Source: Exophiala sp. HKRS030 (Eukaryota > Ascomycota > Eurotiomycetes > Chaetothyriales > Herpotrichiellaceae). From it: DNA of 64,000 nt. The stretch lies in NCBI GenBank assembly GCA_023897205.1, contig JAHWDD010000010.1:744001-808000 (forward strand), in the 5' to 3' direction. Positions 8,082 through 44,392 of the stretch are shown piece after piece. Below the pieces are notes generated by a model. That model had not been told where the DNA came from. It saw only the letters and a program-made list of their open reading frames with translations, and searched no databases. The position numbers and the translations under genes were made by a program. Positions within the stretch are counted from its first letter, which is position 1. Each line of letters starts with the position of its first letter.

Positions 8082-8105
8082 GGCTGCTGGTTCCAATTTC
8101 GTCAA

Positions 8106-22562: not shown

Positions 22563-22595
22563 TACCACGATACCCTGAAAATCGGGATATTGTGG
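22563..22595. promoter_or_regulatory. Inverted pair of operator-like motifs before the EthD gene
   Basis: CGGGATATTGTGG at 22583-22595 is a full match to the module consensus YSGGATATYGTGG. A second, inverted relative occupies 22563-22575 (plus strand ACCACGATACCC; reverse GGGTATCGTGG). The pair lies about 200 bases before the ATG at 22799 in non-coding DNA. A binding role is inferred from recurrence at other promoters of this module. Confidence 0.6.
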
Positions 22596-22798
22596 TTTTG
22601 AAGCCATTCAGCATTGCTCGGATATAATACGGCTCTTCGGCGTTCCTTATAAAACCTCGTGTGGCATGTGGCTGGCCATATCCGGGGTCATGCTAGGAGG
22701 CTTATTCCATAAAAGTAATACGCTGAGCCCACCGCTGCACGCACCATCACCAGACTCTGTTTAACACTTTCCAGGACTATTAGTCCCCGTCGTCCCCA

Positions 22799-23692: not shown

Positions 23693-25707
23693 CTAGTGGT
23701 ACACGTTCTTCTCGGCTTGAACATCATTTTCAAGGAAGATTTCAATTTTATCATTCATTTTCGGCCCAATATCTTCTAGCCAACAGGACCCCAGGATAGC
23801 AAGGCTGCCAAATCCGATTGACGCCAACGAGACATTCCTGAAAATAGGTCAGTGAAGTCTGGGGAATAGTTAAATCAAGGCGAGAACTCACTTGACACCC
23901 TCAACGTAGCTCTGCTGGAACGCTGCCGCAGCCGCTCCGATCATGGCAGTTGTCAACCCTTGGATCTTGGCCAGGGCGGTAGCGCCTTCAGGAAGAGCTG
24001 CAAGGAGGGCCTTTGCAATGGCCGGAGTAGCACCCGCAGCCTCGGCTGCTGCAATCACATGTTTTTCCGCATAGTTGGACTGAGTGGTTGTCAATATGGT
24101 CATAAAAACCGTATTAGCAACTGCACCTCCACCGGTTCTGGCAACACCGCCGAGCCCACCAACGATTCCCAGCTCAGTCTGCTCGGCTCCAAATTGGATG
24201 AAGACGATAGAGAGATACTGGACATAGCCAAAGAACATTGATGTCAGAAACGTAAATGCAATCCCGAGGCTCTCCTTTTGAGGCGTGATATAGGCATTTA
24301 AACCTCCAAAAAAGGTCATCAAGGTGAATGGGATGAACATTTGCAGTCTCCAATGTTTGAGCCGCCGGCCGAAGCAAGACAACATAAGGCTTCCAGCTAG
24401 GATCCCAAATCCCTGGACGGTGGAGAGCCAGTAAACCTTTGTGTCTGAAGTGGTGGCGTCTGTGAAGTATACATTGACCATTGTGGGCCAAGTTATATTT
24501 TGTCCGTAGTAGAACATGGTAACAACGAATCCACAGATGAATGGACTACCTAGAGTCCGACCCTTGTTTGCGGCGAAGAGTCTTGGTGGGGTCACAGGTG
24601 CCTTGAGCTTTGTGTTGAATGTTTCCCAGAGAGCAAAGAAAGCCAAAGTTACAAAACCACCCACAAGCAGTCCAATCACTTTTGGTGAGTTTGAGGGCAC
24701 CAGTTGCACAAAGGCAATGCCACATAAGATCATGATGGTGGCCCCAACAAAACTAGCCATGCCGACGTAGTCAAGCTCTCGAACAGCCTGATGCCAGGGA
24801 ATACCTCTTGGATGCTTCGGCGGGAAGTACACTTTATAACGGACGTCAGCAAAGCTTTGCAGGCCAAACCTTCAGATGACAGGAATGGAAAATACACTAT
24901 AGTCACGTCAGCAACGGATCATGCGAACTATTATGCCTGTATGGGGCTTACGACAGAGAACAAGAACCGCCATCGACATTCCTATTGACATCGTCACTCC
25001 CCAGTAGCCCCACCTCCACTAATAAGACAGATAGTTAGTCTTGGGGGGTTTTGCATCGAGGTAATCAGGGGGGGAGACATTACCGCATGATGCTTCGCGG
25101 CAATGCGTGATACAACAGGGCCGGCAATGAAATCAAAATAGAGACCGGCATCAGCGATGACGACTCCGATATGTTTCCACTTATTTGGTAGAAGCTCTGG
25201 TAAGGCAAATGACGCCAGCATGCAATTACCCGCACCGAACCCGAGAATGAAGTGCGAGGCGGCTGACTGAGTGATTGAATGAGAGGTAGCCCCAATGATA
25301 GACCCGATGAGCACAAGTGCGTTCCCAAATAGTATGAATGCTCTACGGCCGAACAGATCACTACTCGTACCACAGACCATGAAGGAGCTTGTGGCGCCCA
25401 TCGTATATACCGCGGTGAGCCAGGTTCCCTCTTGAGGGGCTGAGCCGAATTCTGTCGCCAACTGGTTCTGGATAATGCTGAAAAAGGAGACGGGCCAGAA
25501 GGAGATACCATATGACAGTGCAAGAACCTGGCAGATATTAGAACAACCACGAGAACCGTGAGATAGACTTGGCTTTACCACAACAATAGCCCATGTTTTC
25601 ATCGTCACCTGGTCACTGCCGTTTGTATGTGGGTCTCTGATGCCGGCCTCGAGTTGCGATACGCAGTTTTCCTTTTCAGGTGTACACCGTTCGATCGAGA
25701 CGTCCAT
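23693..25707 (-). CDS. MFS transporter (fungal drug/siderophore-type)
   Basis: Exons from 5' to 3': 25579-25707, 25084-25527, 24952-25018, 23892-24831 and 23693-23837, 574 residues. The splices were set by frame: AIVV to VLALSYGISFWPVSFF, KHHA to WRWGYWGVTM, and VEGVK to NVSLASIGFGSL. The fourth exon start at 24831 is the least certain. The A-loop-like segment GTSSDLFGRRAFILFG and FILGFGAGNCMLASFALPELLPNKWKHIG match the fungal TRI12-like family; 12-14 helices are visible. Placed inside the central module with a module motif in its upstream region, it may import an aromatic acid or export an intermediate. It is not similar enough to assign to the bacterial MhpT family. Confidence 0.87.
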
Positions 25708-26564
25708 GTTCGAATGTGGTGCAGTGGAACTTCAATTATTGTGTCGATAGTGTTCGCTTTCCTCAAATATGTCGCCTTAAGCCTTGTAGGTAAGACAGCC
25801 CTCACGATCTAGTCGGGGTCTAAGGAAAGCTGAACTTTTCGTCGTAGCGATATGAGATATCAGCTCGCTTGTTATGCAAACGCCAATAGCCCTCCATACC
25901 ACGGGTATAGAGAGCTCCGTTCACAGATTACATCGGATATTGTGGTTGTGCTGTAACTTGGGCCCCGTAGCAACCGGAGGATATGTATTGGTATGGAGAA
26001 ACCACATTTACCCGTATTAATCCACCATTTGAGGTTTCAACTTCTCTTTTCCCAGATCCTAGGACCCCTCAAGGGCCTGCTGTAGTCTCCATGAATGGGG
26101 ACCTATAGTCATGGAGAGAATTAATCTCGTAGCCGAGGACAGCGTCCTTGCCTTCTGCAATTGATCAAGATTATAGGTACCCACAGTCGAGGAACTCGCG
26201 GAACCGCAGGCTCACAGCCATGGGGAAGGATTTCCCGCCTGTCTTCTACTCGTCTGGGCACCTTATGCTCCCTTAGTGGTGATAAAGGGTGAATTCCATC
26301 ATTTTTCATTCCTCATTATATCCTTATGGAGGCTCCACTTTTGGTATCCTCATATGCAGCCCCCGTAAAGAAAGAAATAATTGACCTCATACTATTCTCT
26401 CATAGAAGAACAAGGTGGCCTGTTGTCTCTCCGGTCCTCCTTTGACTCGACCGGTCTCGACCGCTTTCAACCACGGCTAACCTGGTATGTTTGCCTTCCT
26501 TTTTCTAGTAATTGCTGCTGATGGTCGCCTCGTGCCAACATCTAGCTCGCTGCGTATCTTCATA
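25708..26564. promoter_or_regulatory. Divergent upstream region of MFS and alpha/beta hydrolase genes
   Basis: 857 bases without a gene. It contains one strong module motif (25934-25945) and a looser inverted relative, ACCACATTTACCCG at 26001-26014. Just before the hydrolase ATG a GTATGT donor (26485) and a TCTAG acceptor about 60 bases later, with a CTGAT branch, suggest a 5' leader intron. Confidence 0.5.
25934..25945 (+). promoter_or_regulatory. Operator-like motif CGGATATTGTGG
   Basis: Matches the module consensus from its second base onward and is preceded by T. It lies 227 bases before the MFS start and about 620 bases before the hydrolase start. Function is inferred from recurrence only. 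Confidence 0.6.
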
Positions 26565-27399
26565 ATGCTAGTGGATTCGATCATTAAAACCGGTCCTCTG
26601 CCAGCGGTTGTGTTTATTCCTGCCTCCTTCTCCCCGACTTCGTTCTACAACAAGACCATTGACAAGCTCCGAGTGATTGGGATCGAGGCAATAATACACA
26701 GTCTACCATCAGCGAGCCGAAGGCCGCCTGAACAGGCAGCCACATTAGCAGAAGATGTCGCGTACTTTCACGATGTCGTTGCAAAACTCGTCGATCAGGG
26801 CAAAGATGTTGCTCTCGTTATGCATTCGTACGGAGGTATTGTGGGTACAGAGGTCTGCAGAGGGCTAACGAAGAAAGAGAGAGAAGGAAATGGTATGAAG
26901 GGAGGGCTGGTAAGACTGGTGTATGTCACTGCAGTTGTGCCGATGCTTGGACAGTCTCTGAATGATGTGCTGGGATCTCCAGCGAATCTGAAGACCCAGG
27001 TGAGGGAATTAGCGTATCTTTGTTTCAACACGGAGATCTAACCTTGCACAGGACGGGTACATGAGAAATGAACCATATGAGGACTGCGCAAAGTCTCAAT
27101 TCTCAGATTTACCGCTGCAAGAAGGAGTTGCTTGGGTCAAACGAATGACTGTTCATTCGGCAGCCAGTTTTGCGGACAAGCTGATGTTTGCGGGTTATAA
27201 CTATCTTCCTGTGTCATGGTTACTGTGTGAAGACGATCATATCCTGACTGCAGACTTCCAACGACAGACTATTGTGATGATCGAACGGGAGAGTGGAAAC
27301 AAAGTTGCTGTTAGTAGACTTAGAGCTGGACACTTTCCAAACGCGAGTATTCCGGAAGACACGGCGAATGCTATATTCGAGGCGATTACGGCGGAATGA
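26565..27399 (+). CDS. Alpha/beta hydrolase
   Basis: Exons 26565-26999 and 27052-27399 give 260 residues (NLKTQ joined to DGYMRNEPY). The fold signs are PAVVFIPASFSPTSFYN at the first strand, the nucleophile elbow VMHSYGG, an acid in LCEDDHIL and the histidine in RAGHFPN, so the triad is complete. An in-frame ATG at 26487 would add 26 residues but overlaps a probable leader intron, so 26565 is preferred. Proteins of this group are esterases, lactonases or C-C hydrolases. Next to a class B flavin monooxygenase it could cleave a Baeyer-Villiger ester or lactone; substrate not proven. Confidence 0.85.
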
Positions 27400-27599
27400 A
27401 GCAGTATCTCTCTTCGTATATCGGCGGCTTAAAAAGTTCATGATATATTTCCTCTTGCACATAGAGCCTAGATTGGCAGTGTTTGCGTTTCTTGACCGAC
27501 GGCCGTTGCTGGAGGTCTCGAAGACAGGATCATCCTGGATCCCATTTGCAAATTAGCGGACCCCAGGGGGAGGCAAGGATCTCATCATGGGAAGAGGTA

Positions 27600-27611
27600 C
27601 CACATTACCCG
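27600..27611 (-). promoter_or_regulatory. Variant operator-like motif before the SDR gene
   Basis: Plus strand CCACATTACCCG; reverse CGGGTAATGTGG. It shares the 11-mer TAATGTGGTAC with the site at 43500-43512 between mhpC and mhpD. It lies about 260 bases before the ATG at 27872. Confidence 0.45.
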
Positions 27612-27871
27612 ACTCAGTGAGGTTCTGAATTTATTGCGCTAAAGTGTCTGATCACTGCAGTCTATCCATTGAGATTTTGTTGAAGAAAGCGAGGTATCCA
27701 GCTGAATCCGGCGACTCCTGCAACTTTTCTTATCTTTCTACTATCATCTCGTGTTTGCGATCATCTAGGAAATGCGTTACGGCACCTAAAATATCAGCTG
27801 CTAATCGTCCAATTTCTCACGTCTCTCATCCTTGAACAACTTTTATTGGATTGTTGAAACGCGTCGCCGCC

Positions 27872-28684
27872 ATGACGTTTGCTGGCAAGGTTGTAGCTAT
27901 TACCGGAGCCGCATCTGGGATCGGTCTTGCCACAGCGAAAGTACTGGCTTCTTCAGGTGCTAAGCTAATCCTGGCAGACGCTCAGGAGAAGGCACTTCAA
28001 GCAGTGGAGAAGGAATTAACTGCTTCGAGCTCTGAAGTGCTTTGTTCTGTGGTCGATGTTCGGTCTCGCGAGAGCGTCGAGGCGTGGATTCTGAAGGGCG
28101 TGGAAACCTTTGGAAAACTGGACGGTGCGGCGATCTGCGCCGGGGTAACAGGGAAGCAGATAATGAAGGACGATATCCAGGATATCGATGACAATGACTG
28201 GAATTTTGTCTTTGACGTCAATGTCAAAGGTACATTGAACACTTTAAGAGCTATTTATGCGACCCTCAAAGATGGCGCCTCGGTCGTGACCATGGCTAGT
28301 CTGGCCGGTGTGACTGGAATCCCCAAAAATGGTGCTTATGTGGCTTCAAAGCACGCTGTCGTCGGTCTCTCAAGGACAGCGACCATAGAATTGGGACATA
28401 AGAATATTCGAGTGAACTGCGTTTGTCCGTGAGTACTTGCTCAACTGATTTCCGATGAATTCTGAGAATCACTAACGTTGGTGTCTCGCAGTGGCCCTAT
28501 TGAAACCCCCATGATCTCACATCTGAGAGGCCCAGGGCAAGACGCGTTCAAGCAAATGGCGCCGCTGGGAAGAAATGGTCAGCCAGAGGAGGTGGCAAAT
28601 CTCATACAGTGGCTGCTGTCGGATGCGTCCTCTTTTATGAGCGGAACTACTCAAGTAATTGATGGCGGATTTTACAATCAGTAA
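27872..28684 (+). CDS. Short-chain dehydrogenase/reductase (classical, NAD-type)
   Basis: Exons 27872-28428 and 28492-28684, 249 residues. The intron splits the codon for Pro in NCVCPGPIETPM, the typical SDR Pro-Gly motif, confirming the junction. Motifs: TGAASGIG, LADAQ (acidic residue, NAD), CAGV in place of NNAG, catalytic Ser in TMASLAG and YVASK. Length and layout match classical SDRs such as cis-dihydrodiol or hydroxyacyl dehydrogenases. In this module it may oxidise an alcohol or dihydrodiol intermediate. A variant module motif lies upstream. Confidence 0.87.
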
Positions 28685-29097
28685 TTCAAGCTCTCATATG
28701 GAGCTGTACTGCGTGTCGACTTCATACTTCATACTTGGGAAAAAATCAAATGGGAACGAGAATTCTGAACGGCTGCAACAGCTGATCTGTCTGGTACCGA
28801 TCACCCTTGGAGCATGCAGTTTCCAACTAGATCCTTCTAAACTTTCTATCACGAATTCTTTTCAGATATATCCAGTATATCTCACCAAGAGCAGCGGTTA
28901 TTATGAAGGGTGCTACCACGCTCATGACGATAATGATGGTTTGAGAACAACAAAAAATTTGGAAGGCTAGCATTGACGCCAGAATGAGGCCTCTACTTAA
29001 AGACTATCCTACAGCAAAATGGTCAACGTGACAGTGTATTGAAGCAGTCAATTCTGACACACAGGCTTTGGAAACATATCATGGGATTGTCCAGTCT
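28685..29097. other. Intergenic, no gene seen
   Basis: Spacer between convergent SDR and KstD-like genes, with no domain-bearing frame. Confidence 0.6.
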
Positions 29098-30894
29098 TTA
29101 ATCTTGAGTCCGTTGCGCAATATTGTCCATCGCAATGTACGAAAATGTGATTGCAGGCCCCAATGTTGCACCTGGACCTGCATATCTCCTCCCCATAACG
29201 CTTGCCGTGGTATTTCCTGCTGCATAAAGTCCTGGAATAGGGTTGCCATCTTCCCTCAAGACACGTGCGAACTCGTCCGTCAGAAGACCTCCTTTGGTAC
29301 CCAGATCTCCTGGGTAGATTCTGAGGGCATAAAAGGGGGATTTTGCGATAGTGCCGAGATTCGGGTTTGGCTTGTGATATGGATCGCCGAAGAAGTTATC
29401 GTACGCATTCTTTCCGCGGTTAAAATCCTCGTCGACACCTTTGAGGGCGAAACCGTTGAACCTTTCCACAGTAGTTTGCAGGCTTGTAGGGTCGATATTT
29501 ATCTGTTTTGCTAGGCCACCGACAGTGTCATCTCTGTAAATGAAGCCATTCTCAATAGCCCATTTCGGTGTGGAGCGCGGGCCGAAGCGAGCCAGCATGT
29601 AATTGTTGCGGTGCCTTGAATCGAGGATGATCCAGGAGGGTATAGCAGCGGTGGTTTCGTGGTGCTTATTCATGGTCTTACCAAAGTCATCGTAGTCAAG
29701 AGATTCATTCATATAGCGGGAGCCCTTGCCGTCAACGATGATGGCATGGGGGAATGATCGGACGGTGAGATCGAAGATGGGTGTTTCGCCCACAATGATC
29801 ATGGGCATCCACCATGCTGAGTCCATCAAGTCCACTGCAGCCCCGAGCTTCTGACCAGCCCTGATAGCATCGCCTTGGTCTCCTGGCGATGCCACACTCC
29901 ATTGAGCATGAATCGCCCTTTTCTGGTACTGCTCACGCATCGCTGAGTTTTTGGCAAAACCCCCTGCTGCCAAAAGGACCCCTTTCCTGGCTCCGATCCT
30001 CAATTTCTTCCCGTCTCTCTCCACAAGCGTTCCAATCACCTTGCCATCCTTGTCGCTTATAAGGTCCACTAAGCCAGTCTCCCGCCAAATCTCAGTCCCA
30101 TGCTGCTTGTTGAGATAAAGCAACTGGCCAACCAAGCTCTTTCCGAATGTCACAGGCTTCTGGCCAATCAGCATGCGAAGACACATCTTTGCAATCATCC
30201 CACTGAATTTATAGAAGTCGTAAAGATGCGCGCCCATGCGATATATATGCGGGGTTTCGTCACAATAACACGCAGGAGCCGGGTCGCCCGGGAGCCTGAT
30301 CATCGAGCGCCAGGATCCGAGTTTCTTGAGGTCGAAGACCTGGCCTTCGATTACACGACCAAGTGCTTTGGAGCCGGGTTCGAGACAATGGTAATCAGGA
30401 TAGCCTAATGCAGCATGCCACTTGAACCCCAGACCTTCCAGATACCTGACCATCTGTGGGCTTTGGTCAATGTATGCCTGCTTTCTTTCCTTGGTGCTAG
30501 ATGGTGTGTTCGGCGGGACAATGGCTTCAAGATAGCGGAGACCCTCCTCCGCGCTATCTTCCAGACCTGCTGCCTTTGACACATGGTTGTTTGGAACCCA
30601 GAGCGCGCCGCCAGAGTACGCACTAGATCCACCGATTTTGGGTGTCTTCTCAAGGACCAGCGGCTCCAGTCCATGATACTTTGCGCGCAACGCGGCTGTG
30701 AGGCCTCCTGCTCCTGATCCGACAACAATAACATCGGACACTTTGTCAAACCCTGTTACGTCCAGGATCCTGGTGGTAGACAAGCGGGCTAAGTGTATGC
30801 GCTTGCAATCTATCGAGAAGCCACTGTATTCGCTGGGACGGACTGACCGAAAAAAAAGGCCATAAGGCTTCGGTACGCAGAATAACGGCTGCAT
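29098..30894 (-). CDS. FAD-dependent oxidoreductase, 3-ketosteroid Delta1-dehydrogenase/fumarate reductase-like
   Basis: Intronless, 598 residues, ATG at 30894. Residues 54-64 read DVIVVGSGAGG and continue to LVLEKTPKIGGSSAYSGGALWVP, the FAD_binding_2 dinucleotide and the SxxSGG loop of KstD enzymes. Internal YMNESLDYDDF and LDSRHRNNYMLARFGP, and the C-terminal YPGDLGTKGGLLTDEFARVL with GLYAAGNTTASVMGRRYAGPGATLGPA, are family hallmarks. Family members introduce a double bond next to a ketone in steroids or cyclic ketones. The first 50 residues are basic and aromatic, look like a leader, and have no counterpart in bacterial relatives; an organelle presequence or a mis-set start are both possible. 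In this module it may desaturate an alicyclic ketone on the way to an aromatic ring. Confidence 0.85.
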   Translation of the reverse strand: MQPLFCVPKPYGLFFRSVRPSEYSGFSIDCKRIHLARLSTTRILDVTGFDKVSDVIVVGSGAGGLTAALRAKYHGLEPLVLEKTPKIGGSSAYSGGALWVPNNHVSKAAGLEDSAEEGLRYLEAIVPPNTPSSTKERKQAYIDQSPQMVRYLEGLGFKWHAALGYPDYHCLEPGSKALGRVIEGQVFDLKKLGSWRSMIRLPGDPAPACYCDETPHIYRMGAHLYDFYKFSGMIAKMCLRMLIGQKPVTFGKSLVGQLLYLNKQHGTEIWRETGLVDLISDKDGKVIGTLVERDGKKLRIGARKGVLLAAGGFAKNSAMREQYQKRAIHAQWSVASPGDQGDAIRAGQKLGAAVDLMDSAWWMPMIIVGETPIFDLTVRSFPHAIIVDGKGSRYMNESLDYDDFGKTMNKHHETTAAIPSWIILDSRHRNNYMLARFGPRSTPKWAIENGFIYRDDTVGGLAKQINIDPTSLQTTVERFNGFALKGVDEDFNRGKNAYDNFFGDPYHKPNPNLGTIAKSPFYALRIYPGDLGTKGGLLTDEFARVLREDGNPIPGLYAAGNTTASVMGRRYAGPGATLGPAITFSYIAMDNIAQRTQD

Positions 30895-32882: not shown

Positions 32883-35720
32883 ATGTTCTCTTGTCCAGAG
32901 TGCGGTAGGAACTATGTCACTCAAGGCTCTCTGAATAGGCATCTCAACAACCACTCTCTACAAACCACCGGACACAAGTGCTCGGTATGCGACTTGGCCT
33001 TTTCGCGACGGGATTTGATGCTACGTCACAAGGCAATCCATGACGATCCTCCACGTACACATCGACGCAGGTGTCACACTGCTTGCGAAGCATGTCGAAA
33101 CCTGCATGAGAAGTGCGATGGAGGAAGACCGTGTAATATGTGCCGCGATCGAAACCGAGAATGTGTGTACGCACAGAGATCTCGCCGAGTCAGTCAGCCT
33201 GCTCAAAGCACCAGCGGCACTGCGGATGGGAGACACTACTCTCTGGGGGCCAACAATACCGAAACTTCTGACCACGGCCAAGAAGTTCGTGAGAGAGGCA
33301 TAGACCGAACCGTCTCTCTGCGCAATTCACCATGGCCAAGCGGCGCAGATACTAACCTCTATGCGACGGCGGAAACCAGATCTACCGCTGCACACCAACA
33401 AGAAAGCACAACCACGATGAATTCAGTGACCAATGGAGCTCTATGGGATGGCTCCACCATTGTGTCACCGTCTGGCTACACAGACTCCTTCCTGCAAAAT
33501 GTGCCAGGATCGCCTGTTGAGGGCGGCATTCCTTCATCAGAAACTGGTGATGCTTTACAGAGGTCGAGAATTGAAGGTGACCTTCCCCAAACGGACGAGG
33601 CCGATCTCTTTGCAGACGTAATGCATCTGGAGGGCAACGATATTACGGACAGGATCCAGAATGACGAAATATTCGCTGAACTAGACACCTCCACAATCCC
33701 TGAGTTTTTGGATATTCTCCTCCCTGATTTGCCAGATGTATCCTTTGGAGACCATACTCTTCTTCTAGAGGGCCACGCAGGTCAGAGCGATTGCCGAGAG
33801 GATACCCAGTCTGAGATGGCGTTGCCACGAACGGACAAAATGATACATCATCAGCTACGAGACCCCAGTTTCCAGTTCCCGTCCACCTGGCCCGATATTA
33901 CCCTCTCTTCGTTGCCAACGGCGAGCGTAATGCACAATAATGAGGCCAGTAACCAATCTGATTTGGCGCATATGCCACCTCTCTCTTGGAAGGACAACAT
34001 TATCGATCCAGACGGACCCCAGACAAACGAGACTCGAAAGGAACGTCACTCTAAGCAGAGCATGCTTGTTAAAAGGTTGATTGACTACGCCATCACAGCC
34101 TCGGACGTATCGTCAGTCGAACGACGTCGTTACTGGGAGTCTGAATCCGCCCAAGTGTCTAAGGTGTTTGGTCTTTCTCAGCCGTCTGACCCCAGTGGTT
34201 GCATATTCGTCCGGATGGTTCAACTCTACCAGCAAAACATCCTCCCGTTGTGGCCCATGATCTGCGAGAAAGATCTCCAGGACCCGACAAGCTTACACCC
34301 AGTTCTCTTCCTGGTCGCTGTATCAATTGGTGCCATGTATCTTGATCAAAGAGCTAGTGTCTTTGGCGACATCTTGCAGAAGGGCTTACGAACAGCTCTG
34401 ATCACTTCCTTCATAGAAGAAGAGCTTACGGACACGGACACAATTTGGTTGGCTCAAGCCAGAAATACGATCCAAGTCGTTTCGTTGTATTCTGGCCAAG
34501 GTCTAGGGCTCACATACGCACAGCATCTGGGCGCGGTTCTACTGTCACAAAGTCGGCGCATGGGTTTGTTTCGGCGCACCGAGAATGAAGATTTTTCAGC
34601 CCCCCGGAGTGCTGAAGAACATGTCGCAGCGTGGGTACGAACAGAAACAAGAAGACGTGTCGCATTTGGTATATTTCGAGCGGACGTTTTCATGAGTTCT
34701 CTTATGAATTGTCCGCCCAGTATCTCACCAGAAGAGTTGAAAATTTCCCTTCCATACCCAGATTCTCTGTGGCAGTCGATCGGGAATTTACCCGCAGAAG
34801 AGATATTGGATGCCCTGAGAGATGAGGCCGGTAAACAGAATAGCGGTCTTCTGTTTTGTGACCTCGTTCGCATCACCTTGGATCGCCACGAGGTCCTCTT
34901 AAATATGGAGGCGAGAGATTATGAGTTGCTTCTGTTCGGCCTGCAGAGGGAAGTATGGAAGTTCAGCCACGATCCCGATATGTTTCAGCGTTTGACCGGC
35001 CATACTCCCCAAGAGGATGAACATGCTGATTTCCTGGACGTCGAGGTCACTCGTGTCTTTGACAACCATTCCAAGCCACGAGACCGACTCCAGATCGACC
35101 ATCGGGAAATGAAGGACTTGATACTCGATAGGAGGCGGCTTCTCAAGGCTCTTGAGAAATGGAACCAAAGTTTCAATGCCAGCAGATACCGCGCTGGATT
35201 CAGCATTGATCGAGGAAGTATACTGAGTAGCCTGCTTCTGTTCCACATTTACCACGTTCAACTGAATGCCTCGCTGGATGTTCTGCATCAAATAGCCGAT
35301 GGTCGCTGCAACAAGACCACTATTGACAACCAGACGCTTCGGAAAACAATTCGCTGGGCACATAACTCACAAGGAAGGAAGGCCACATATCACGCTTCGA
35401 AGATTTGGTCACTCCTTGACAACGAGGCAAGAATGAATCCCATGAAGAAAGCACGGTACACTATGCTCTCATTCATGGGTTTATACCATGCATCCGTCGT
35501 GCTTTGGACAACATATGGAGCTCAGGGCGCCACCTTGCAGCCTCTTACGGCTCCACCGAGCATTGGTGGCTTGGATCTTTATCATCCCAGTAGTCATTGT
35601 CATATTCTGACTAGCATCGTGTTTCTCTATCAGAGGTTGAAGTGTATGAACTGGGATGCTTTTGCAGACAGTGTCAGAAGACTCTCCCGGTATCAATTTC
35701 CGCGAGATCATACCTGTTGA
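32883..35720 (+). CDS. Dual C2H2 plus Zn(II)2Cys6 fungal transcription factor
   Basis: Uninterrupted 945-residue frame, ATG at 32883. Two classical C2H2 fingers come first (C4/C7/H20/H24 and C33/C36/H49/H53), followed directly by a binuclear zinc cluster with Cys 68, 71, 78, 84, 87 and 94, spacing 2-6-5-2-6. A long acidic, Ser/Thr-rich linker runs to about residue 400, then a fungal-specific transcription factor domain (LYQQNILPLWPMIC, HPVLFLVAVSIGAMYLDQRA, LGAVLLSQSRRMGLFRR, WVRTETRRRVAFGIFRADVF). Combined C2H2-Zn2Cys6 regulators are a known fungal class, several tied to catabolic genes. Its place among the aromatic genes and the module motif in its own promoter make it the leading candidate for the pathway activator. 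Confidence 0.9.
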   Translation: MFSCPECGRNYVTQGSLNRHLNNHSLQTTGHKCSVCDLAFSRRDLMLRHKAIHDDPPRTHRRRCHTACEACRNLHEKCDGGRPCNMCRDRNRECVYAQRSRRVSQPAQSTSGTADGRHYSLGANNTETSDHGQEVRERGIDRTVSLRNSPWPSGADTNLYATAETRSTAAHQQESTTTMNSVTNGALWDGSTIVSPSGYTDSFLQNVPGSPVEGGIPSSETGDALQRSRIEGDLPQTDEADLFADVMHLEGNDITDRIQNDEIFAELDTSTIPEFLDILLPDLPDVSFGDHTLLLEGHAGQSDCREDTQSEMALPRTDKMIHHQLRDPSFQFPSTWPDITLSSLPTASVMHNNEASNQSDLAHMPPLSWKDNIIDPDGPQTNETRKERHSKQSMLVKRLIDYAITASDVSSVERRRYWESESAQVSKVFGLSQPSDPSGCIFVRMVQLYQQNILPLWPMICEKDLQDPTSLHPVLFLVAVSIGAMYLDQRASVFGDILQKGLRTALITSFIEEELTDTDTIWLAQARNTIQVVSLYSGQGLGLTYAQHLGAVLLSQSRRMGLFRRTENEDFSAPRSAEEHVAAWVRTETRRRVAFGIFRADVFMSSLMNCPPSISPEELKISLPYPDSLWQSIGNLPAEEILDALRDEAGKQNSGLLFCDLVRITLDRHEVLLNMEARDYELLLFGLQREVWKFSHDPDMFQRLTGHTPQEDEHADFLDVEVTRVFDNHSKPRDRLQIDHREMKDLILDRRRLLKALEKWNQSFNASRYRAGFSIDRGSILSSLLLFHIYHVQLNASLDVLHQIADGRCNKTTIDNQTLRKTIRWAHNSQGRKATYHASKIWSLLDNEARMNPMKKARYTMLSFMGLYHASVVLWTTYGAQGATLQPLTAPPSIGGLDLYHPSSHCHILTSIVFLYQRLKCMNWDAFADSVRRLSRYQFPRDHTC

Positions 35721-35959: not shown

Positions 35960-37792
35960 TCACTTCGACAGATTGGTTCCATTAACCACCACCGTTTGTG
36001 GCCTGCGAAACTCTTCGGTAATCAAGCCATCGAGGTCAGCTTTGATAAGCAGTGCCAGCCGTTTGGAGCCCGGTCGTACTTGATTGATACCACCACCGTT
36101 GAACCATAGACCACGCTGCCTAGTTTGTCCCCAGATGTTGGTCCATTCGCCATCATTGTCCTGGAGCGTTCCAATGTCACCGACCTTCTCGGCAATCTCA
36201 CACCCAAACTGTTCTGCGACTTCAGCCTTGCGATTCTGATAGCCGGTTGCCAGAACAACCAAGCCAGCCTCGATGACTTTGCCATCGTTGAGCTTGAGCC
36301 CACTGGGAAGAAACTGTGAGACTCGAGAGTACTGTTCGACCCGAATTCCGCCCGCAGCGATGATATCGGAGGTGCCTTTGTTGAAGTAATATCCACCACC
36401 AGTGCGCAGAAACAGATCTAGCCATCCCATACGTCGAACGCCGTGACCTATATGGAATCCGACTGCTTCCAGCCTAGTCAGCAAGTCCTTGTCCATTTCG
36501 GTGGCCATATCATGGTAAGCTTGGCTACGCTGCTCTCGGATGGGATTGATCAACGCAGTGCCGTAGGTCAAATCAACCAGCTCGGTAGATATGGAGGGGT
36601 CAATGTAGCCTGCATATGTGAGATTTGCAGTGTCCATATTGACCACCACGGTTGAACCACGCTGAATCATGGTCGTCTCGACGCCATTCTTGTACAGGTC
36701 GTCGGCTATGTCATGTGCACTGGTTGCTGAACCGACAACGATAGCCTTCTTGATGCCGTAGTCTGCTGCCTTGGTGTATTTCGATGAATGCATGACTCGA
36801 CCAGTAAAAGATGATAAGCCAGGCAGCTCCGGAACGACTGGTTTACCACCTACTCCTCCAGTGGCTAGAACAATGTGGCTTGGGTGGAGGACACGCGTAA
36901 CTCCGTTGGCGGTTTTGAGTATTGCCGTCCACTTATTCGTTCCATCGTCATATGAGCCCTTGAGAAATTCTGTCGACGTCCATACATTTAGACTCAGGTA
37001 CTGAGCGTAGGTCTCGAGCCACTGACCCATGAGGTCTTTGGGCAGGTACTCGGGAAAGTGCTTGGGAAACTCGAGGAACGGAAAGCCATTCATCTCCACC
37101 GGGTTGTGAAGGTGCAGTGCATCGTAGCGACGGTACCAATTATCTCCCACTCGCTCATTCTTGTCGACGATCAGTGTGCAGACTCCAAGTTGTTCGAGAT
37201 GAGCTGCAACGATCAATCCTGCTTGCCCTGATCCCACAATCAGCACTTCGGGATTCATGTCGATGTATTGCCGCCTTATGTCGTGATGTTGTTTCCACGT
37301 CTCCCCGTCATAACTGGGCGTGTAGCCATTTCCGCGAGGATGCACTTCGGGGCCTTTGATGTTCTTGAGTTCTTCCAGCCGTGTGTACATGGCAGTTAGC
37401 TTCAGCGACTTGATATTCGGTAAGCAGTTGAGCACTGCGACTGCCCTTCCATTGTCTGTTTCAAAGTCTACGAAAGCTTCCAGCGTCAAAGAGTTGTCCT
37501 GTTGCACCTGAAATCGTGGTGCAGGCCAGTCGGAGGATACAAGAAAGTCGTGTGCCTTGATCACTTTGTTGGTCCGTAGGAGTGTCGAGATGGATGCGTC
37601 GCGGCTATGAAACTGCACAAAGTCCCACGTAAATGCCCCATTGTCCCGAAAGTAGGACACCTCGTGAAACAGATCATGAAGGCTCTTTGCATCGCCGCCA
37701 GTGAGGGCATTTTCGAATCCTGTCAACCAGGCTTCTACCAAAACTCGAGCCTGCTTTTGATCCGTTGGATCGATTTGAGCCAGCGACCCCAT
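35960..37792 (-). CDS. Class B flavin-containing monooxygenase with N-terminal SnoaL-like domain
   Basis: Intronless, 610 residues, ATG at 37792. Residues about 15-140 resemble a SnoaL/NTF2-like fold (WLTGFENALTGGDAKSLHDLF, FRDNGAFTWDF). The FAD site VLIVGSGQAGL is near residue 186. FTGRVMHSSKY fits FxGxxxHxxxY of flavin monooxygenases, where Baeyer-Villiger enzymes have Trp at the last position. The NADPH site is AIVVGSATSA near 350, and LVVLATGYQNR closes the FAD domain. Such fusion proteins are common in fungi and oxidise ketones, amines or aldehydes; the activity is not assignable. It is divergent from mhpA across 1.16 kb, so joint control is possible. Confidence 0.87.
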   Translation of the reverse strand: MGSLAQIDPTDQKQARVLVEAWLTGFENALTGGDAKSLHDLFHEVSYFRDNGAFTWDFVQFHSRDASISTLLRTNKVIKAHDFLVSSDWPAPRFQVQQDNSLTLEAFVDFETDNGRAVAVLNCLPNIKSLKLTAMYTRLEELKNIKGPEVHPRGNGYTPSYDGETWKQHHDIRRQYIDMNPEVLIVGSGQAGLIVAAHLEQLGVCTLIVDKNERVGDNWYRRYDALHLHNPVEMNGFPFLEFPKHFPEYLPKDLMGQWLETYAQYLSLNVWTSTEFLKGSYDDGTNKWTAILKTANGVTRVLHPSHIVLATGGVGGKPVVPELPGLSSFTGRVMHSSKYTKAADYGIKKAIVVGSATSAHDIADDLYKNGVETTMIQRGSTVVVNMDTANLTYAGYIDPSISTELVDLTYGTALINPIREQRSQAYHDMATEMDKDLLTRLEAVGFHIGHGVRRMGWLDLFLRTGGGYYFNKGTSDIIAAGGIRVEQYSRVSQFLPSGLKLNDGKVIEAGLVVLATGYQNRKAEVAEQFGCEIAEKVGDIGTLQDNDGEWTNIWGQTRQRGLWFNGGGINQVRPGSKRLALLIKADLDGLITEEFRRPQTVVVNGTNLSK

Positions 37793-38954: not shown

Positions 38955-40562
38955 ATGTCATCTTGCGACACAGATGTTATCATAGTCGGTGCAGGACCTG
39001 TGGGCCTTGCACTTGGAAACTATCTGGGGAATTGTGGGGTTCAAGTCCTACTTCTTGAGAAGCGTGACAGGATCATCAACTATCCTCGGGCTATTGGGAT
39101 TGACGACGAGTCACTTCGCATGATTCAAGCCACCGGCCTTGTCGAGAATGTTATACCTCACACGACGCCAAACCACTCGTTGAGGTTCATTACCCCCCAG
39201 GGACGATGCTTTGCCGACTTTCAGCCGACAACCCTGGATTTTGGGTGGCCCCGTCGCAATGCCTTCACGCAACCAGAGGTCGATAAGGTCCTCTATGAGG
39301 GCCTGGGCAGGTTTGAAAATGTTGAAATACTCTTGTCCACCACCATCCAATCTGTATATGAGGATGAGAAGGGTGTTACAGTGGTTTCTGACAACCGGAC
39401 TTTTCACTCAAAATATCTGATCGGATCCGATGGTGGTAGCAGCTTCGTACGCAAGCACTTCAACATTGATTTCGAAGGGAAGACAGCCCCGGACCCGTGG
39501 ATAGTCGTCGATATCCGTAACGACCCTTTAGGAATTCCCAATGTATATGTGCATTGTGATCCCACACGGCCATATGTTTCTGCTGCACTACCTCATGCCA
39601 TTCGCCGATTCGAATTCATGGTCATGCCAGGCGAGACTGAAGAGTACCTAAGTCAACATCAGAATATGCGGAAGCTTCTAGCAAAAGTTTTACCTCATCC
39701 GGACAACATCGAGGTCATTCGGAGTCGGGTTTATACCCACAATGCTCGCTTGGCTGCCAGATTCCGCCACGGACGCGTCTTACTTGCTGGAGATGCAGCA
39801 CATATTATGCCTGTTTGGCAGGGACAAGGGTACAACAGTGGTCTGAGAGATGCCTTCAATCTCGGCTGGAAACTTGCTCGGGTCGCAAAGGGCATACTAC
39901 ACCCATCAATCCTAGACACCTACGAAGCGGAGCGTCGCAGTCATGCCAGAGCAATGATCGATCTCTCTGTGCTGACTGGACAGATATTTTGCCCCCCCTA
40001 TCGCTGGCTAGGTTGGCTAAGGGATGGAATGACTTGGATCATGTCATATTTCCCATCAGTTAAACGCTACTTTTTGGAAATGAGATTCAAACCCATGCCA
40101 CGATATGGCAGAGGAGCAGCTTTAGTCCTGGAAAAAGAGCGCTTCGCACCTGTAGGGACTATGTTCATCCAACCATTTATATTCAAGGACCAGGACTCTG
40201 AAAGGGAATACCGTCTCGACGACGTTATCGGCTCCGATAACTTTGGATTGATCGCCTGGGGCACGAATCCGATATGGGGACTGAATCCCCAGCAGGTGCA
40301 GGCATGGAGGCGCTTAGGAACCACATTCATTCAAGTATTACCGTCGTGTCAACTGAGAAGCCCCCAGGAAGCTGCAGAGAGCGAACTTGGGGTCCTTGGC
40401 GTGGGGGACAGCAGGAGTGCTGAACTCAAGAAGTGGTTCAGCAACCATCCTTGCTCCCTCGTGGTTATACGACCGGATCGGATTGTTGCAGCTGTGGCAA
40501 TTCCTCAGACGATAGGAGACGTATCGGACCGCTTTTTTGAAGCGATTGGGTTGGCTATTTGA
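38955..40562 (+). CDS. mhpA: 3-(3-hydroxyphenyl)propionate hydroxylase (MhpA-type flavoprotein monooxygenase)
   Basis: Intronless, 535 residues; ATG at 38955 chosen because codons before it reach only a GTG. It adds a hydroxyl ortho to the existing phenol of 3-(3-hydroxyphenyl)propionate or 3-hydroxycinnamate, giving the 2,3-dihydroxy catechol, with FAD, NADH and oxygen. Visible motifs: GAGPVG, the DG motif in [12 protein letters not shown] and the GD motif in [21 protein letters not shown]. As I recall E. coli MhpA, many blocks match closely: [50 protein letters not shown] and [14 protein letters not shown]. That exceeds ordinary fungal phenol-hydroxylase similarity and points to bacterial ancestry. 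It is convergent with the ring-cleavage gene and preceded by a module motif. Confidence 0.93.
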
Positions 40563-41042
40563 AATGCGGGAATACTTGGATGATTCCCTTGAGTGCAGTT
40601 GGCAGGATCTGCCGTCCTTGATTGGGCCAATGAATAGAAAGCACATGATCTCATCCTGAGGGGTCCTAAAACACAGGATAATGAATTGCTTTTCTCTTAT
40701 CAAAGAAAGAAGATAGGATCATTGAAGAGAAATTTAGGCTAGAAAGCCTAGGTCAAGACGTTGATTACCCAGGAACCACTGGCATATATTTCTATAAGCT
40801 CTATCCTCATATATCATTGCGAATGCACCTTGTACTTTCCTCACGTATTCATGGATTTAGTTTACGGGTGCACGATTGATTGAAAGTGGCCGTTCTAAGG
40901 AAAACTTCTGGTCCGAAAACACTGAAGTAGTAAACGAAATTCAAAGTGTTTTCCTCAATTGCCCAGAATACTCATGACTCCATTTGATGCGAGGTGAACA
41001 GGCTCTGCTGCTGGAATCACATCAACATGGACCACTCTCTCG
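40563..41042. other. Intergenic between convergent mhpA and mhpB genes
   Basis: 480 bases, no gene. AT-rich 3' flanks with no operon-style linkage, as expected for separately transcribed fungal genes. Confidence 0.6.
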
Positions 41043-41993
41043 CTAAATGGACTTGGCAGTCAGGCCTCCGAATCCAGATATCCACTCAGGAATTGGCCGA
41101 TAGTATTGAAGTACAGGCTCGTATGGTCCCATGATGGCCATGGCAGATGCAGCCGCTACCCATGTTTTGGTTTCGTGGGTTGATGCGCCAGCAATCTCTG
41201 TCACATCCTTGTTTTCCACGTCGTCAAGTATCCACATGTTGTTACTGGCAATATTATGCAGAAACTGCTGGTCCCATTCCGGAGCAAGCGCGTGCAGTGA
41301 GTTTGGATCCTTGACGAATTGCTTCGCAGCGGCGATGGTTCGAGTTGTTCTGAGTTCCCGTGCTTCTTTTGAAAGGTTTTTACCAGCTCCCAAGAGGAGC
41401 TGCCGTACTGGCTCGGGAGCTGTAGCATACTCGGGTACAGGCGGCTGATGAGACAGACCTCCAGACGCCATGAAGAGTACTCTTCTATCCAGTCTTTTGC
41501 AGAAACCTCCGACGGCTTCTCCCAGCACTCTGGCTCGCTTGAACGTCGGTAGGGGGGGCGCGACGCCATTGACGAAGATCGGTATGACCGGATACTTGTC
41601 GATTCCACCAAGTAGAATGCTCAGAGGCTGTGAGAAGGCGTGGTCGACTTGCATTTTTTGGGAGGTTGCTATGTCTACACCGTTCTGGATGCAGTATTCT
41701 GCAAGCTGAGTTGCAAGTTCCGGCGCAGTGGCCAGTGGTCCTTTCGAGGTGCCAAAGTCGCCAATGGCATGTGCCTCTATGCCCACACAATAGCAAGGCA
41801 TCACATCGTGAAAAAAGCCGTTGAAGTGGTCCGGTGCGAATACAACCACAAGCTCTGGATCGTACTCTGCAATCAGTCTCCGTGCTTCTTGGGTATAATC
41901 CTCGACCTCTGCAAGGACGGAATCGGCCGGGTTGACTAATCCGATCAGAGGCGTGTGTGACATGCACTGTAAAAACCCAGACATGCCAGGCAT
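41043..41993 (-). CDS. mhpB: 2,3-dihydroxyphenylpropionate 1,2-dioxygenase (MhpB-type extradiol ring cleavage)
   Basis: Intronless, 316 residues, ATG at 41993. It opens the catechol ring of 2,3-dihydroxyphenylpropionate between C1 and C2 using Fe(II), the class III (LigB-type) extradiol fold. Signatures: MSHTPLIGLVNPAD, ELVVVFAPDHFNGFFHDVMP, QVDHAFSQPL with an active-site His, VIPIFVNGVAPPLPTFKRARVLGEA, MASGGLSHQPPVPEY with a second catalytic His, and the C-terminal YYRPIPEWISGFGGL. These match bacterial MhpB blocks as I recall them, and the length agrees (314 residues in E. coli). Extradiol meta cleavage of this type is rare in fungi. It is transcribed on the same strand as mhpC, from a separate upstream region. 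Confidence 0.93.
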   Translation of the reverse strand: MPGMSGFLQCMSHTPLIGLVNPADSVLAEVEDYTQEARRLIAEYDPELVVVFAPDHFNGFFHDVMPCYCVGIEAHAIGDFGTSKGPLATAPELATQLAEYCIQNGVDIATSQKMQVDHAFSQPLSILLGGIDKYPVIPIFVNGVAPPLPTFKRARVLGEAVGGFCKRLDRRVLFMASGGLSHQPPVPEYATAPEPVRQLLLGAGKNLSKEARELRTTRTIAAAKQFVKDPNSLHALAPEWDQQFLHNIASNNMWILDDVENKDVTEIAGASTHETKTWVAAASAMAIMGPYEPVLQYYRPIPEWISGFGGLTAKSI

Positions 41994-42488
41994 ATGGCAA
42001 AGAGATCGGCCAGGGAGGATATAAGAGCCTTAAAAATGTGAAAAGCACGTAGCCAGGAAGACGGCAGCAAAGACTTGAGTTAATCAGGGTACTTCATTTT
42101 GCACTACAGTAGTACTCTGACAAGACCTTGGGGAAAAGGTGGCATACGTTGTTGCCCGATGGGGTTATTGTAGTACCACAGAGCAGCTACTGTGCTAGTT
42201 ACAGGTCTGTATCACCGGATCTACTAACCAACTCATTCACTATCTACGCCACGTCTCGTGTCCCAGTCCATCGACATCCCGTACATGATTTTATGACTAC
42301 ACCACGGGTTATATTAAGCTAGGGGTAGGTGGAGATATAGGCTATAGTCCGGATGCATACAGGTGATGTATGTACCGACTTTCTGGAACATGGACGAGAG
42401 AAAACTGCACTTCCTATATTGTGTTGGTGTATCAACACCAGTATTTGTTCGGAGGCATGCCTATGTCCAAGCAATGGCAAGTGTAACT
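41994..42488. promoter_or_regulatory. Upstream region of mhpB
   Basis: 495 bases with no gene. GGGGTTATTGTAG at 42161-42173 and CCACGGGTTAT near 42303 are weak relatives of the module motif; no strong copy is present. A minus-strand TATA is not obvious. Confidence 0.4.
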
Positions 42489-43346
42489 CTAAGCTTTCAA
42501 GAAATCTATGACAATACTGTTAAATCTGTCTGCGTGTTCCCATTGAGCCCAATGACCGCACTTGTTAAACAGATGGACCTCTGAATTTGGAATGCCGGCT
42601 CCCAAGCGAAATGCTCCATCCACCGGCATAACTCGATCCTGACGGCCCCAAATGATCAATGTTGGCACCTGGATCTCAGGGAGCCTTGGTGTAACATCGG
42701 GATACTGAACTGCATTCAAGGCGGAACTTTTTAGAAAGTTCTTCAGGTGATCCTCTCTGGAGAGCATGTTCCTCAGTCGTAATTGCAGTAGATCTTCGGT
42801 GAGGCTACTGCTATCGTAGACGAAAATGTCGTTGAACTTCTTCAAGTTTTCCAAGGTGGGATAACGGTATAGATTAATGACTTGCTTCATTCCTTCAGTA
42901 GGCATCGGGGTAAAGAGACTGATGCCGCCAGTGCCACCTCCCATGAGAACAAGTTTACCGACATGATTGGGAAACTCCAGAGTAAACGCAGAAGCACTAT
43001 GCCCGCCCATTGAGTTTCCTACAAGATGGATCTTACTGACTCCAAGCAGGTCGATGACACCTTTCACTACTCTAGCATTGAGAAATGAACGGGCTTCTGA
43101 ATTGATGATCGGGTCGCTGTCGCCCCAACCAGGAAAATCAATGAGCAGCACCCGGTATCCAGCATCGACAAATGATTCGATATTTCGGTGGAAGTTGGCC
43201 CAACCAGTCGCACCTGGACCTGATCCATGCAGCATCACAACTGTTTCTTTGCCGTGGCCGCAGTCGTTGTAGTGTATTTGCAAAGGCTTTCCATCCTCGT
43301 GAATGGTCACAAATCGACCTGTGTCCTCAGCTGTAAATGAAGACAT
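42489..43346 (-). CDS. mhpC: 2-hydroxy-6-oxonona-2,4-dienedioate hydrolase (MhpC-type meta-cleavage product hydrolase)
   Basis: Intronless, 285 residues, ATG at 43346. An alpha/beta-hydrolase that cuts the C-C bond of the ring-fission product, releasing 2-hydroxypenta-2,4-dienoate and succinate (or fumarate from the cinnamate branch). Motifs: oxyanion region [15 protein letters not shown], nucleophile GNSMGGHSA, acid in [11 protein letters not shown] and base in [14 protein letters not shown], the same order as in MhpC and BphD. The N-terminus ends an IHYNDCGHG strand typical of the family. Length agrees with bacterial MhpC (about 288). It is divergent from mhpD over 236 bases, so the pair probably shares one control region. 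Confidence 0.92.
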
Positions 43347-43582
43347 GATTTCATGTGAGACCTTTCAGCACAGTTATCTCAGAAGTCAGGAGGCAGGGCT
43401 TTTTGGTACCAGGAGTAAGGTTCCTATACTACTAAGATATTTTCAATATCACTCGAAGACCTGGCAGTCTTGGATTGTCCGTCGCCCGTCGCTGGCACTG
43501 GGGATAATGTGGTACGAGCTCACCGTATATAGCTTGGCCACGGAACAGCAGGAGGTCGTGAAGGTAGGGCAGCGCATTCCCC
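43347..43582. promoter_or_regulatory. Compact divergent promoter between mhpC and mhpD
   Basis: 236 bases separate the two starts. GGGGATAATGTGG at 43500-43512 differs from the module consensus at two positions and shares TAATGTGGTAC with the site at 27600. CCGTATATAGC near 43522-43532 is a plausible TATA element for mhpD, about 55 bases before its ATG. Confidence 0.55.
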
Positions 43583-44392
43583 ATGTCCAAAGTCATCATG
43601 GATAGCATCGTCAGTCAAGCAGCAAAAGCGTTGAGAAATGCACAGAGCTCTGGAAAATGCATTCCCCCGTTGCGGCTCACGTTCAAGGGCTTGAGTACAG
43701 AAGATGCCTACGCAATTCAGAAAGAGAACATAAATTTCCATGTTCTACAAGGGGCTCGAGTCGTCGGAGCAAAAATTGGTCTCACTTCGGTTGCGGTACA
43801 GAAACAGATAGGAGTCGATGTGCCTGACTACGGCGTATTGCTGGACAATATGGAATTCCCCGAAGGTCTTCCGATACCAATGTCCCGCTTGGAGCAGCCC
43901 AAGATCGAGGCCGAAGTCGCATTCATCTTGCGAAAAGATCTCGATATGGCACGCCCGACCATTGTAGATGTTATCCAGGCAATCGACTACGTTGCTCCTG
44001 CATTTGAGATTGTTGGCAGTCGAATTCAGAATTGGGATATACAATTAGTCGACACAATTTCGGACAATGCCTCTTCATCTGGATACGTCTTGGGCACTCC
44101 GCTACGCAAGCTTGAGGGTTTGGACCTGCGCTACTGTCTCATGACTATCATGAGTGGCTCTTCAGAAGGAACAGTGGTTTCGACAGGGGATGGTGCTGCA
44201 TGCCTTGGAAATCCACTGAACGCAGTGGTCTGGCTAGCAAGGGTCATGTATGAACGTGGGTTTCCTCTGAAAGCCGGGAATGTCATTCTCTCTGGCGCTC
44301 TAGGGCCTATGGTAACTGTCCAGCCAGGGGAAACATACATAGCACATATTGATGGACTTGGAGATGTGACGGCTGTCTTTGCAACCGCGTAA
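43583..44392 (+). CDS. mhpD: 2-hydroxypenta-2,4-dienoate hydratase (MhpD-type)
   Basis: Intronless, 269 residues, ATG at 43583 (a second Met five codons later is an alternative). It adds water to 2-hydroxypentadienoate to give 4-hydroxy-2-oxopentanoate, needing Mg or Mn. Features of the hydratase/decarboxylase (MhpD/FAH-like) family: ARVVGAKIGLTSVAVQKQIGVDVPDYG, the metal-binding PKIEAEVAFIL, DYVAPAFEIVGSRI, GAACLGNPLNAVVWLA and GNVILSGALGPMV. The length equals bacterial MhpD. No aldolase or acylating aldehyde dehydrogenase follows, unlike in bacteria, so the fate of the product must rely on a gene elsewhere or on another lyase. Confidence 0.93.
   Translation: MSKVIMDSIVSQAAKALRNAQSSGKCIPPLRLTFKGLSTEDAYAIQKENINFHVLQGARVVGAKIGLTSVAVQKQIGVDVPDYGVLLDNMEFPEGLPIPMSRLEQPKIEAEVAFILRKDLDMARPTIVDVIQAIDYVAPAFEIVGSRIQNWDIQLVDTISDNASSSGYVLGTPLRKLEGLDLRYCLMTIMSGSSEGTVVSTGDGAACLGNPLNAVVWLARVMYERGFPLKAGNVILSGALGPMVTVQPGETYIAHIDGLGDVTAVFATA

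Follow-up and report, generated by a model that had tools for sequence, protein, structure and literature searches.

A bacterial-type mhpABCD gene set at one locus of the fungus Exophiala sp. HKRS030

INTRODUCTION

How might a fungus come to carry the genes of a bacterial meta-cleavage pathway, and what could it use them for? Fungi are usually said to break down aromatic compounds by ortho cleavage or via homogentisate. Hydroxylation, extradiol ring opening, C-C hydrolysis, and hydration are the established reactions of the Escherichia coli Mhp enzymes. Here, we analyze a 64,000-nucleotide stretch (C10:744001-808000; the window) of the genome of Exophiala sp. HKRS030, a fungus that we take to be rock and lichen associated. 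Within the window, a preliminary description had read four adjacent genes as a complete set for the consecutive enzymes MhpA, MhpB, MhpC, and MhpD. We consider it likely that the locus is a catabolic cluster of bacterial origin that ascomycete fungi acquired long ago and have kept.

RESULTS

Four adjacent genes encode homologs of MhpA, MhpB, MhpC, and MhpD

Four intact, intronless, single open reading frames (ORFs) lie within positions 38955 to 44392 of the window and were assigned as follows.

38955..40562, + strand, 535 aa: mhpA, predicted 3-(3-hydroxyphenyl)propionate/3-hydroxycinnamate 2-hydroxylase (FAD), from PRK06183, identity to E. coli, and FAD motifs
41043..41993, - strand, 316 aa: mhpB, predicted 2,3-dihydroxyphenylpropionate 1,2-dioxygenase of the class III extradiol type, from LigB, PRK13370, and PDB 8k04
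42489..43346, - strand, 285 aa: mhpC, predicted 2-hydroxy-6-oxononadienedioate hydrolase (C-C hydrolase), from MhpC-type structures, identity, and motifs
43347..43582, no strand, 236 bp: divergent mhpC/mhpD intergenic region, from the gene coordinates; possibly a shared promoter of mhpC and mhpD
43583..44392, + strand, 269 aa: mhpD, predicted 2-hydroxypenta-2,4-dienoate (2-keto-4-pentenoate) hydratase, from PRK11342 and motifs

The strand order is +,-,-,+, such that mhpA and mhpB are convergent and mhpC and mhpD are divergent. Protein families, identities to E. coli, and coordinates bore out the adjacency of the consecutive MhpA-to-MhpD enzymes, and alignment to the E. coli proteins together with motif positions upheld the claim that catalytic and cofactor motifs are intact in all four. 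The genes were correctly described as intronless single frames, but the contrast that had been drawn with their neighbors held only in part, as several neighbors are likewise single long ORFs (5058-6509, 19018-20229, 29098-30894, 32883-35720, and 35960-37792). MhpB homologs start at the fourth codon of the frame that opens at 41993, and the mhpB start is probably 41984 rather than 41993. The hydratase of Knufia peltigerae (Chaetothyriales, Trichomeriaceae; H2204_004683, 264 aa), which differs from MhpD by one residue by eye and is listed at 100% identity in the search table, starts at the sixth codon of the mhpD frame, and the mhpD start may possibly be 43598 rather than 43583.

The four proteins are homologous over their full lengths to MhpA, MhpB, MhpC, and MhpD of E. 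coli K-12, with pairwise identities of 58.9, 54.0, 62.5, and 48.5%, respectively. MhpA (58.9% over 528 positions) has PRK06183 as its best NCBIfam family; the top model scored 793.7 bits, under its own cutoff of 966, and the cutoff of one of the five PRK06183 models was exceeded (556.2 versus 546). MhpA carries GAGPVG at residue 12, SDGGSSFVR at residue 158, and a 14-residue motif at residue 279, which we take to be its FAD motifs. The protein has both the homology and the motifs of a PRK06183-family FAD aromatic hydroxylase, and it also falls inside the MhpA tree described below. MhpB matched Pfam LigB (E value of 4.2e-48), and its best NCBIfam family was PRK13370 (3-carboxyethylcatechol 2,3-dioxygenase) at 416 bits, with the cutoff of one of four models exceeded (385.2 versus 291). 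MhpB also matched PDB 8k04 at 378 bits. Its homology is full length (54.0% over 313 positions), and H118 and H182 correspond to E. coli H115 and H179, presumably the two essential histidines.

The best NCBIfam match of MhpC was a BphD meta-cleavage-product hydrolase model (348.6 bits versus a cutoff of 462), and there was no MhpC model among the matches shown. Against solved structures, however, the MhpC-type entries 1u2e/9ijk scored highest (424 bits), followed by BphD (321 bits) and HsaD (216 bits), such that a nonadienedioate substrate is favored over biphenyl or steroid products. The motifs GNSMGG at residue 110, GRQDR at residue 234, and CGHW at residue 263 presumably supply the nucleophile, Asp, and His, and the protein is a Ser-Asp-His hydrolase that resembles MhpC more closely than BphD or HsaD. 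Finally, MhpD had PRK11342 (2-keto-4-pentenoate hydratase) as its best NCBIfam family (314.7 bits versus a cutoff of 350), and alongside this hydratase homology it carries the conserved Glu motifs IEAEVAF and AFEIVGSR, the glutamates of which we assume to be metal ligands.

Fungal MhpA, MhpB, and MhpD each form one clade among bacterial relatives

Phylogenies of the proteins against bacterial and fungal homologs had been proposed as a check on the locus. For each of MhpA, MhpB, and MhpD, the fungal proteins formed one clade among bacterial Mhp-type proteins and not among fungal paralogs. Tree rows were a selection from the matches listed, and we assigned the fungal or bacterial label of rows that lacked an organism name.

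The MhpB search returned 1,588 proteins, of which the best 120 were examined. Among these 120, rows P0001 to P0018 (P0001 being the window's own protein) were 61 to 100% identical, and the other 102 were 54 to 59% identical and bacterial wherever an organism was given. Six of the 18 rows bear fungal names (Exophiala aquamarina, E. oligosperma, Fusarium beomiforme, F. austroafricanum, Fusarium sp. DS 682, and Zymoseptoria tritici), and the others were taken as fungal by their clustering with the named ones. P0018 was left out of the trees, as part of it looks frame-shifted. With distant LigB-type proteins as the root, a 72-row tree placed 17 fungal rows in one clade inside the bacteria (support of 100), and in a 53-row tree 11 fungal rows formed one clade (100/100). 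The 53-row tree joined this clade to Halomonas, Marinobacter, Alkalilimnicola, and another set of bacterial rows in one mixed group (84/81).

For MhpA, 10 rows were taken as fungal among the best 120 of 6,271 matches (P0241 being the window's own), and four of them are named: Rhinocladiella similis, E. oligosperma, E. aquamarina, and F. mundagurra. A first tree that included two paralogs from the same genome carried a long-branch warning, and the analysis was repeated without them. In the resulting 42-row tree, nine fungal rows formed one clade (100/100) that grouped with Halomonas, Marinobacter, and Amphritea (93/97). Two rows, P0244 and P0252, were left out; by eye, each is an E. coli-like MhpA (732 and 668 aa) in which a long internal stretch seems to be duplicated. 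For MhpD, rows P0121 to P0132 were taken as fungal among the best 120 of 7,374 matches, with K. peltigerae, E. oligosperma, E. aquamarina, and F. mundagurra as named members. Twelve fungal rows formed one clade in a 62-row tree (support of 97), as did eight in a 49-row tree (100/97).

MhpC was compared by identity only, being 58 to 64% identical to seven hydrolases of bacterial mhp-type sets and 32% identical to another hydrolase of one such plasmid. Thus, the pattern expected of horizontal transfer, a fungal clade within bacterial diversity and no closer fungal paralogs, was found for MhpA, MhpB, and MhpD. We conclude that these three proteins are, by the placement of their sequences, of bacterial descent, and MhpC is probably so as well. 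The transfer from bacteria to fungi appears to be old and its product retained. The exact bacterial sister of the fungal MhpA and MhpB was not resolved in the trees. In a survey of bacteria, 5 of 369 genomes from the class of genome G001 had a match at an E value of 1e-80 or better, and a scan of bacterial contigs with a single protein query gave three distant loci.

Related genes are scattered and apparently clustered in other fungi

The genes are not confined to this fungus. Homologs are also present in Exophiala, Rhinocladiella, Fusarium, and Zymoseptoria, where single proteins, e.g., in E. aquamarina, already bear Mhp-type names in databases. MhpA, MhpB, and MhpD are apparently encoded on one contig in six other assemblies (contig sizes of 43382, 541592, 1087077, 71802, 80355, and 55971), MhpB and MhpD likewise in two more (297455 and 20614), and MhpA and MhpD in one (227022). 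The matching contig sizes argue strongly for linkage of these genes in other fungi. For E. oligosperma, MhpA, MhpB, and MhpD carry the locus tags LTS17_009962, LTS17_009964, and LTS17_009966, respectively. The relatives are scattered over the Eurotiomycetes and over what we take to be the Sordariomycetes and Dothideomycetes, a distribution that could have arisen either by an early gain followed by numerous losses or by transfer from fungus to fungus.

Some results weigh against a catabolic cluster of bacterial origin

Several results weigh against reading the locus as a catabolic cluster taken over from bacteria. MhpC and MhpD score under the strict bacterial NCBI cutoffs, and in MhpB an alanine replaces the glycine that follows H118, as it also does in row P0002. 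Moreover, MhpD did not group with the hydratases of E. coli and of the plasmids pSTY and pVPH2 (approximately unbiased test, P of 0.00165), and, as judged from its sequence, it is from another hydratase lineage than the E. coli-type MhpD. A single donor operon for all four genes was accordingly rejected: MhpA and MhpB agree on a Halomonas/Marinobacter-like neighborhood and MhpD comes from the other lineage. The sister of the fungal MhpD proteins was P0133, a row for which the bacterial label is our own and unproven. Two MhpB/MhpD pairs that were placed among bacteria seem to be colocated on a contig, P0083/P0142 (38258) and P0029/P0158 (4661), and thus a donor with this combination may exist.

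The same holds for the lower pathway. The set is not complete as had been described, for MhpF was not found and matches to the MhpE family were partial. The MhpF model TIGR03215 had no match in the genome, nor did the E. coli MhpF protein, a query that finds an E. coli F' record at 678.6 bits. No MhpE-grade aldolase was found with TIGR03217, which gave nine partial genome matches of at most 53 bits versus a cutoff of 286, and E. coli MhpE was 21 to 34% identical to eight fetched loci, with a best E value of 1.5e-6 for that small set. On the E. coli K-12 proteins themselves, TIGR03217 and TIGR03215 scored 601 and 471.5 bits, respectively, far above their cutoffs. In 14 control genomes, TIGR03217 matched in all 14 and TIGR03215 in 2 (E. 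coli not among the two), and neither exceeded its cutoff in any; the E. coli control genome may be one without the mhp operon. A route through MhpE and MhpF to pyruvate and acetyl-CoA was therefore not recovered, and the C5 acid would either be lost or be taken up by an unlinked fungal aldolase together with an ordinary aldehyde dehydrogenase. The genome has 17 matches to the HpcH/HpaI family, and we propose that an unlinked aldolase of this type could replace MhpE.

Finally, the three upstream regions (mhpA, mhpB, and mhpC/mhpD) shared no 7-, 8-, or 9-mer; triples of equally sized stretches drawn at random from the window share on average 6.1, 0.76, and 0.12, respectively. The test of codon usage was weak, as the Pseudomonas mhp genes correlate with the fungal neighbors as well as the fungal mhp genes do. 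Pooled codon usage of the four genes correlated at 0.68 with the neighbors and at 0.10 with E. coli mhp, but taken singly the correlations were 0.28 to 0.66 for neighbor genes, 0.38 to 0.51 for the four mhp genes, and 0.50 to 0.64 for genes of the Pseudomonas plasmid pSTY. Because codon correlation is coarse, the argument against contamination is carried by the GC content at third codon positions (GC3) and by context.

Neighboring genes

The neighbors nearest to mhpA and two further groups in the window are as follows.

35960..37792, - strand: FMO-like flavin monooxygenase (Pfam Pyr_redox_3/FMO-like), divergent from mhpA; a neighbor and possibly a member of the cluster
32883..35720, + strand: neighboring transcription factor with C2H2 and Zn2Cys6 domains (Pfam Fungal_trans, zf-C2H2, and Zn_clus); possibly a regulator of the mhp genes
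863..9677: PF04199 cyclase, ketopantoate-reductase-like protein, flavin reductase, NtaA/DmoA-type FMN monooxygenase, methylisocitrate-lyase-like protein, and short-chain dehydrogenase/reductase (SDR)
19018..30894: Zn alcohol dehydrogenase, aldehyde dehydrogenase, EthD protein, TRI12-type transporter, SDR, and 3-ketosteroid-delta-1-dehydrogenase-like flavoprotein

Spaced CGG...CCG pairs occur twice in the region between mhpA and the FMO-like gene and once upstream of a cytochrome P450 gene (P450), and none was found upstream of mhpB or between mhpC and mhpD. The four mhp genes would presumably be coexpressed. We note that the group at 863-9677 is dense in catabolic genes and appears to form a degradation cluster of its own, one that includes a two-component monooxygenase, the NtaA/DmoA-type member of which scored 436 bits, above its cutoff. 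The flavoprotein at 19018-30894 scored 659.6 bits versus a cutoff of 789. In Fusarium mundagurra, row P0251 is a predicted 801-aa protein that joins a PF04199 cyclase part to MhpA, by either a gene-model fusion or a real one. The joining suggested a larger shared cluster reaching to the window's cyclase (863-1579), but such an extension was not supported, as that cyclase was only the third-best match in its own genome (58%); the other three of the top four were 61, 57, and 55% identical, and the family has 33 matches in that genome.

DISCUSSION

How the four enzymes would act together can be proposed from their E. coli counterparts. From 3-(3-hydroxyphenyl)propionate or 3-hydroxycinnamate, MhpA would make the 2,3-dihydroxy compound by hydroxylation, and MhpB would open the ring next to the diol (extradiol, or meta, cleavage). 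MhpC would split the yellow product into succinate (fumarate in the case of the cinnamate) and 2-hydroxypenta-2,4-dienoate, and MhpD would hydrate the latter to 4-hydroxy-2-oxovalerate, at which point the set ends. Either 4-hydroxy-2-oxovalerate would then pass to unlinked fungal enzymes, or the set would serve detoxification and the release of succinate or fumarate. The substrate, the activities, and the fate of the C5 product are thus predictions drawn from sequence comparison.

Could the genes be something other than a fungal catabolic cluster? Least probable of all, to the point of being negligible, is bacterial contamination or an assembly error. The proteins do resemble bacterial ones and the genes are intronless, but the locus lies 0.78 Mb inside a 2.59-Mb contig amid fungal genes, the same window encoding fungal-type families such as a Zn2Cys6 transcription factor and TRI12-type transporters. 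Moreover, the GC3 of the four genes (0.49 to 0.53) is as in the neighbors (0.50 to 0.60 in 12 of 13, with one at 0.72), that of the E. coli and pSTY mhp genes being 0.55 to 0.70. Gene order is unlike that of the bacterial sets examined, and among the best 120 of 1,588 matches the fungal homologs of MhpB are 61 to 83% identical versus 54 to 59% for bacteria. The contig context, GC3, gene order, and relatives in other fungi together led us to reject contamination. We give scarcely more weight to the idea that these are ordinary fungal paralogs (a phenol 2-monooxygenase, a DOPA dioxygenase, a generic hydrolase, and an FAH-like protein) that merely resemble Mhp enzymes. The genome does hold many FAD hydroxylase and alpha/beta-hydrolase genes (77 matches to MhpA and 15 to MhpC, self included and exons counted separately). 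However, MhpA matched itself at 1,255 bits and its next relative at 85.8, MhpC itself at 660 and its next at 42.7, and the remaining matches to both are 23 to 53% identical, the higher values being over short stretches. MhpB had a single match in the whole genome (59.8 Mb in 50 contigs), and the two paralogs placed in the first MhpA tree were separated by very long branches from every MhpA row. The reading was rejected on these search scores and that placement. A nonfunctional remnant heading for loss is very improbable as well. No other intact copy of any of the four genes was found in the 59.8-Mb genome, but MhpD has one further site there, G000:C3:5929185-5929473 (L044), which is decayed with several stops and shows that such genes do decay in this genome. 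The relic matches best among fungal MhpD proteins (e.g., P0125, 57% over 76 residues; the K. peltigerae protein is lower, at 46% over 76) and suggests that a second MhpD-like gene was formerly present. In the mhp locus itself, all four frames are intact, the catalytic residues are kept, and several fungal genera share a conserved MhpB.

The more serious alternative, though still an unlikely one, is that the chemistry is the same but the substrate or purpose differs, such that the enzymes detoxify a phenol (from plants or lichens, or a pollutant) whose side chain is not propionate, with the C5 product either excreted or used slowly. MhpE and MhpF were not found in the genome, and the neighbors are monooxygenases, a P450, and dehydrogenases of unassigned role. 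Two scenarios have been put forward for extradiol enzymes in fungi, and one of them is detoxification by ring cleavage alone (PMC8896014). Against this, MhpA, MhpB, and MhpC score highest with enzymes of the 3-(3-hydroxyphenyl)propionate type (MhpA and MhpB by family models, MhpB and MhpC by structures), and mere detoxification would not need MhpC and MhpD to be retained. Thus, we continue to favor a catabolic cluster of bacterial descent. We speculate further, at somewhat less than an even chance, that scattered Ascomycota use MhpABCD as separately transcribed genes to assimilate 3-hydroxyphenylpropanoids, with MhpE and MhpF replaced by an unlinked native aldolase (e.g., of the HpcH/HpaI type) and an aldehyde dehydrogenase. 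Such a hybrid bacterial-fungal route would be the first near-complete fungal extradiol (meta) pathway.

Why the locus matters is that an extradiol route of this kind has not yet been worked out in fungi, and a compact set in several genera makes the question testable. In addition, the locus would clearly exemplify a multistep catabolic route that crossed from bacteria to fungi and was rearranged for eukaryotic expression. Judged by titles and abstracts, no report of a fungal mhp cluster was found among the open-access papers listed by the searches. Two fungal cases come closest. Cladophialophora immunda, a toluene-degrading black yeast, encodes a XylJ-like hydratase (CLAIMM_02199) that was called a bacterial transfer and is, like MhpD, a bacterial-type 2-hydroxypentadienoate hydratase in a fungus of the Chaetothyriales; it differs in lying near a UbiD-type decarboxylase, and the terms "extradiol" and "hydroxyphenyl" are absent from the available part of the text (PMC5595782). 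CDO3 of Endoconidiophora and other Ceratocystidaceae is likewise a class III extradiol enzyme in fungi, but it is likened to a 4,5-DOPA dioxygenase, and of the rest of a meta pathway only one gene could be identified there (PMC8896014). A survey of Trichoderma covers degradative clusters whose core is an "aromatic ring-opening dioxygenase," the type of dioxygenase being unstated in the part of the source at hand (PMC10735191).

Among bacteria, the plasmids pSTY and pTTS12 of Pseudomonas and pVPH2 of Vibrio carry mhp-type sets in which B, C, and D are contiguous, as in the fungus. Their genes are codirectional, however, and are followed by F and E, and the regions examined hold no close relative of MhpA. 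The mhp genes are codirectional in E. coli and in five of six other annotated bacterial regions, namely, those with more than B; in the sixth, from Rhodococcus, no C or D was recognized. The mhpABCDFE operon of E. coli K-12 is the nearest overall likeness, as all four proteins are homologous to its products over their full lengths and share the same catalytic motifs. The fungal locus differs from it in host, in its separate +,-,-,+ genes, in its D of another lineage, and in that mhpF and an mhpE-grade gene were not found; beside the four genes, in a comparison confined to the locus, no mhpR- or mhpT-like gene was recognized. Ultimately, the locus presents a pathway known from bacteria in a kingdom new to it, and in a rearranged and shortened form.

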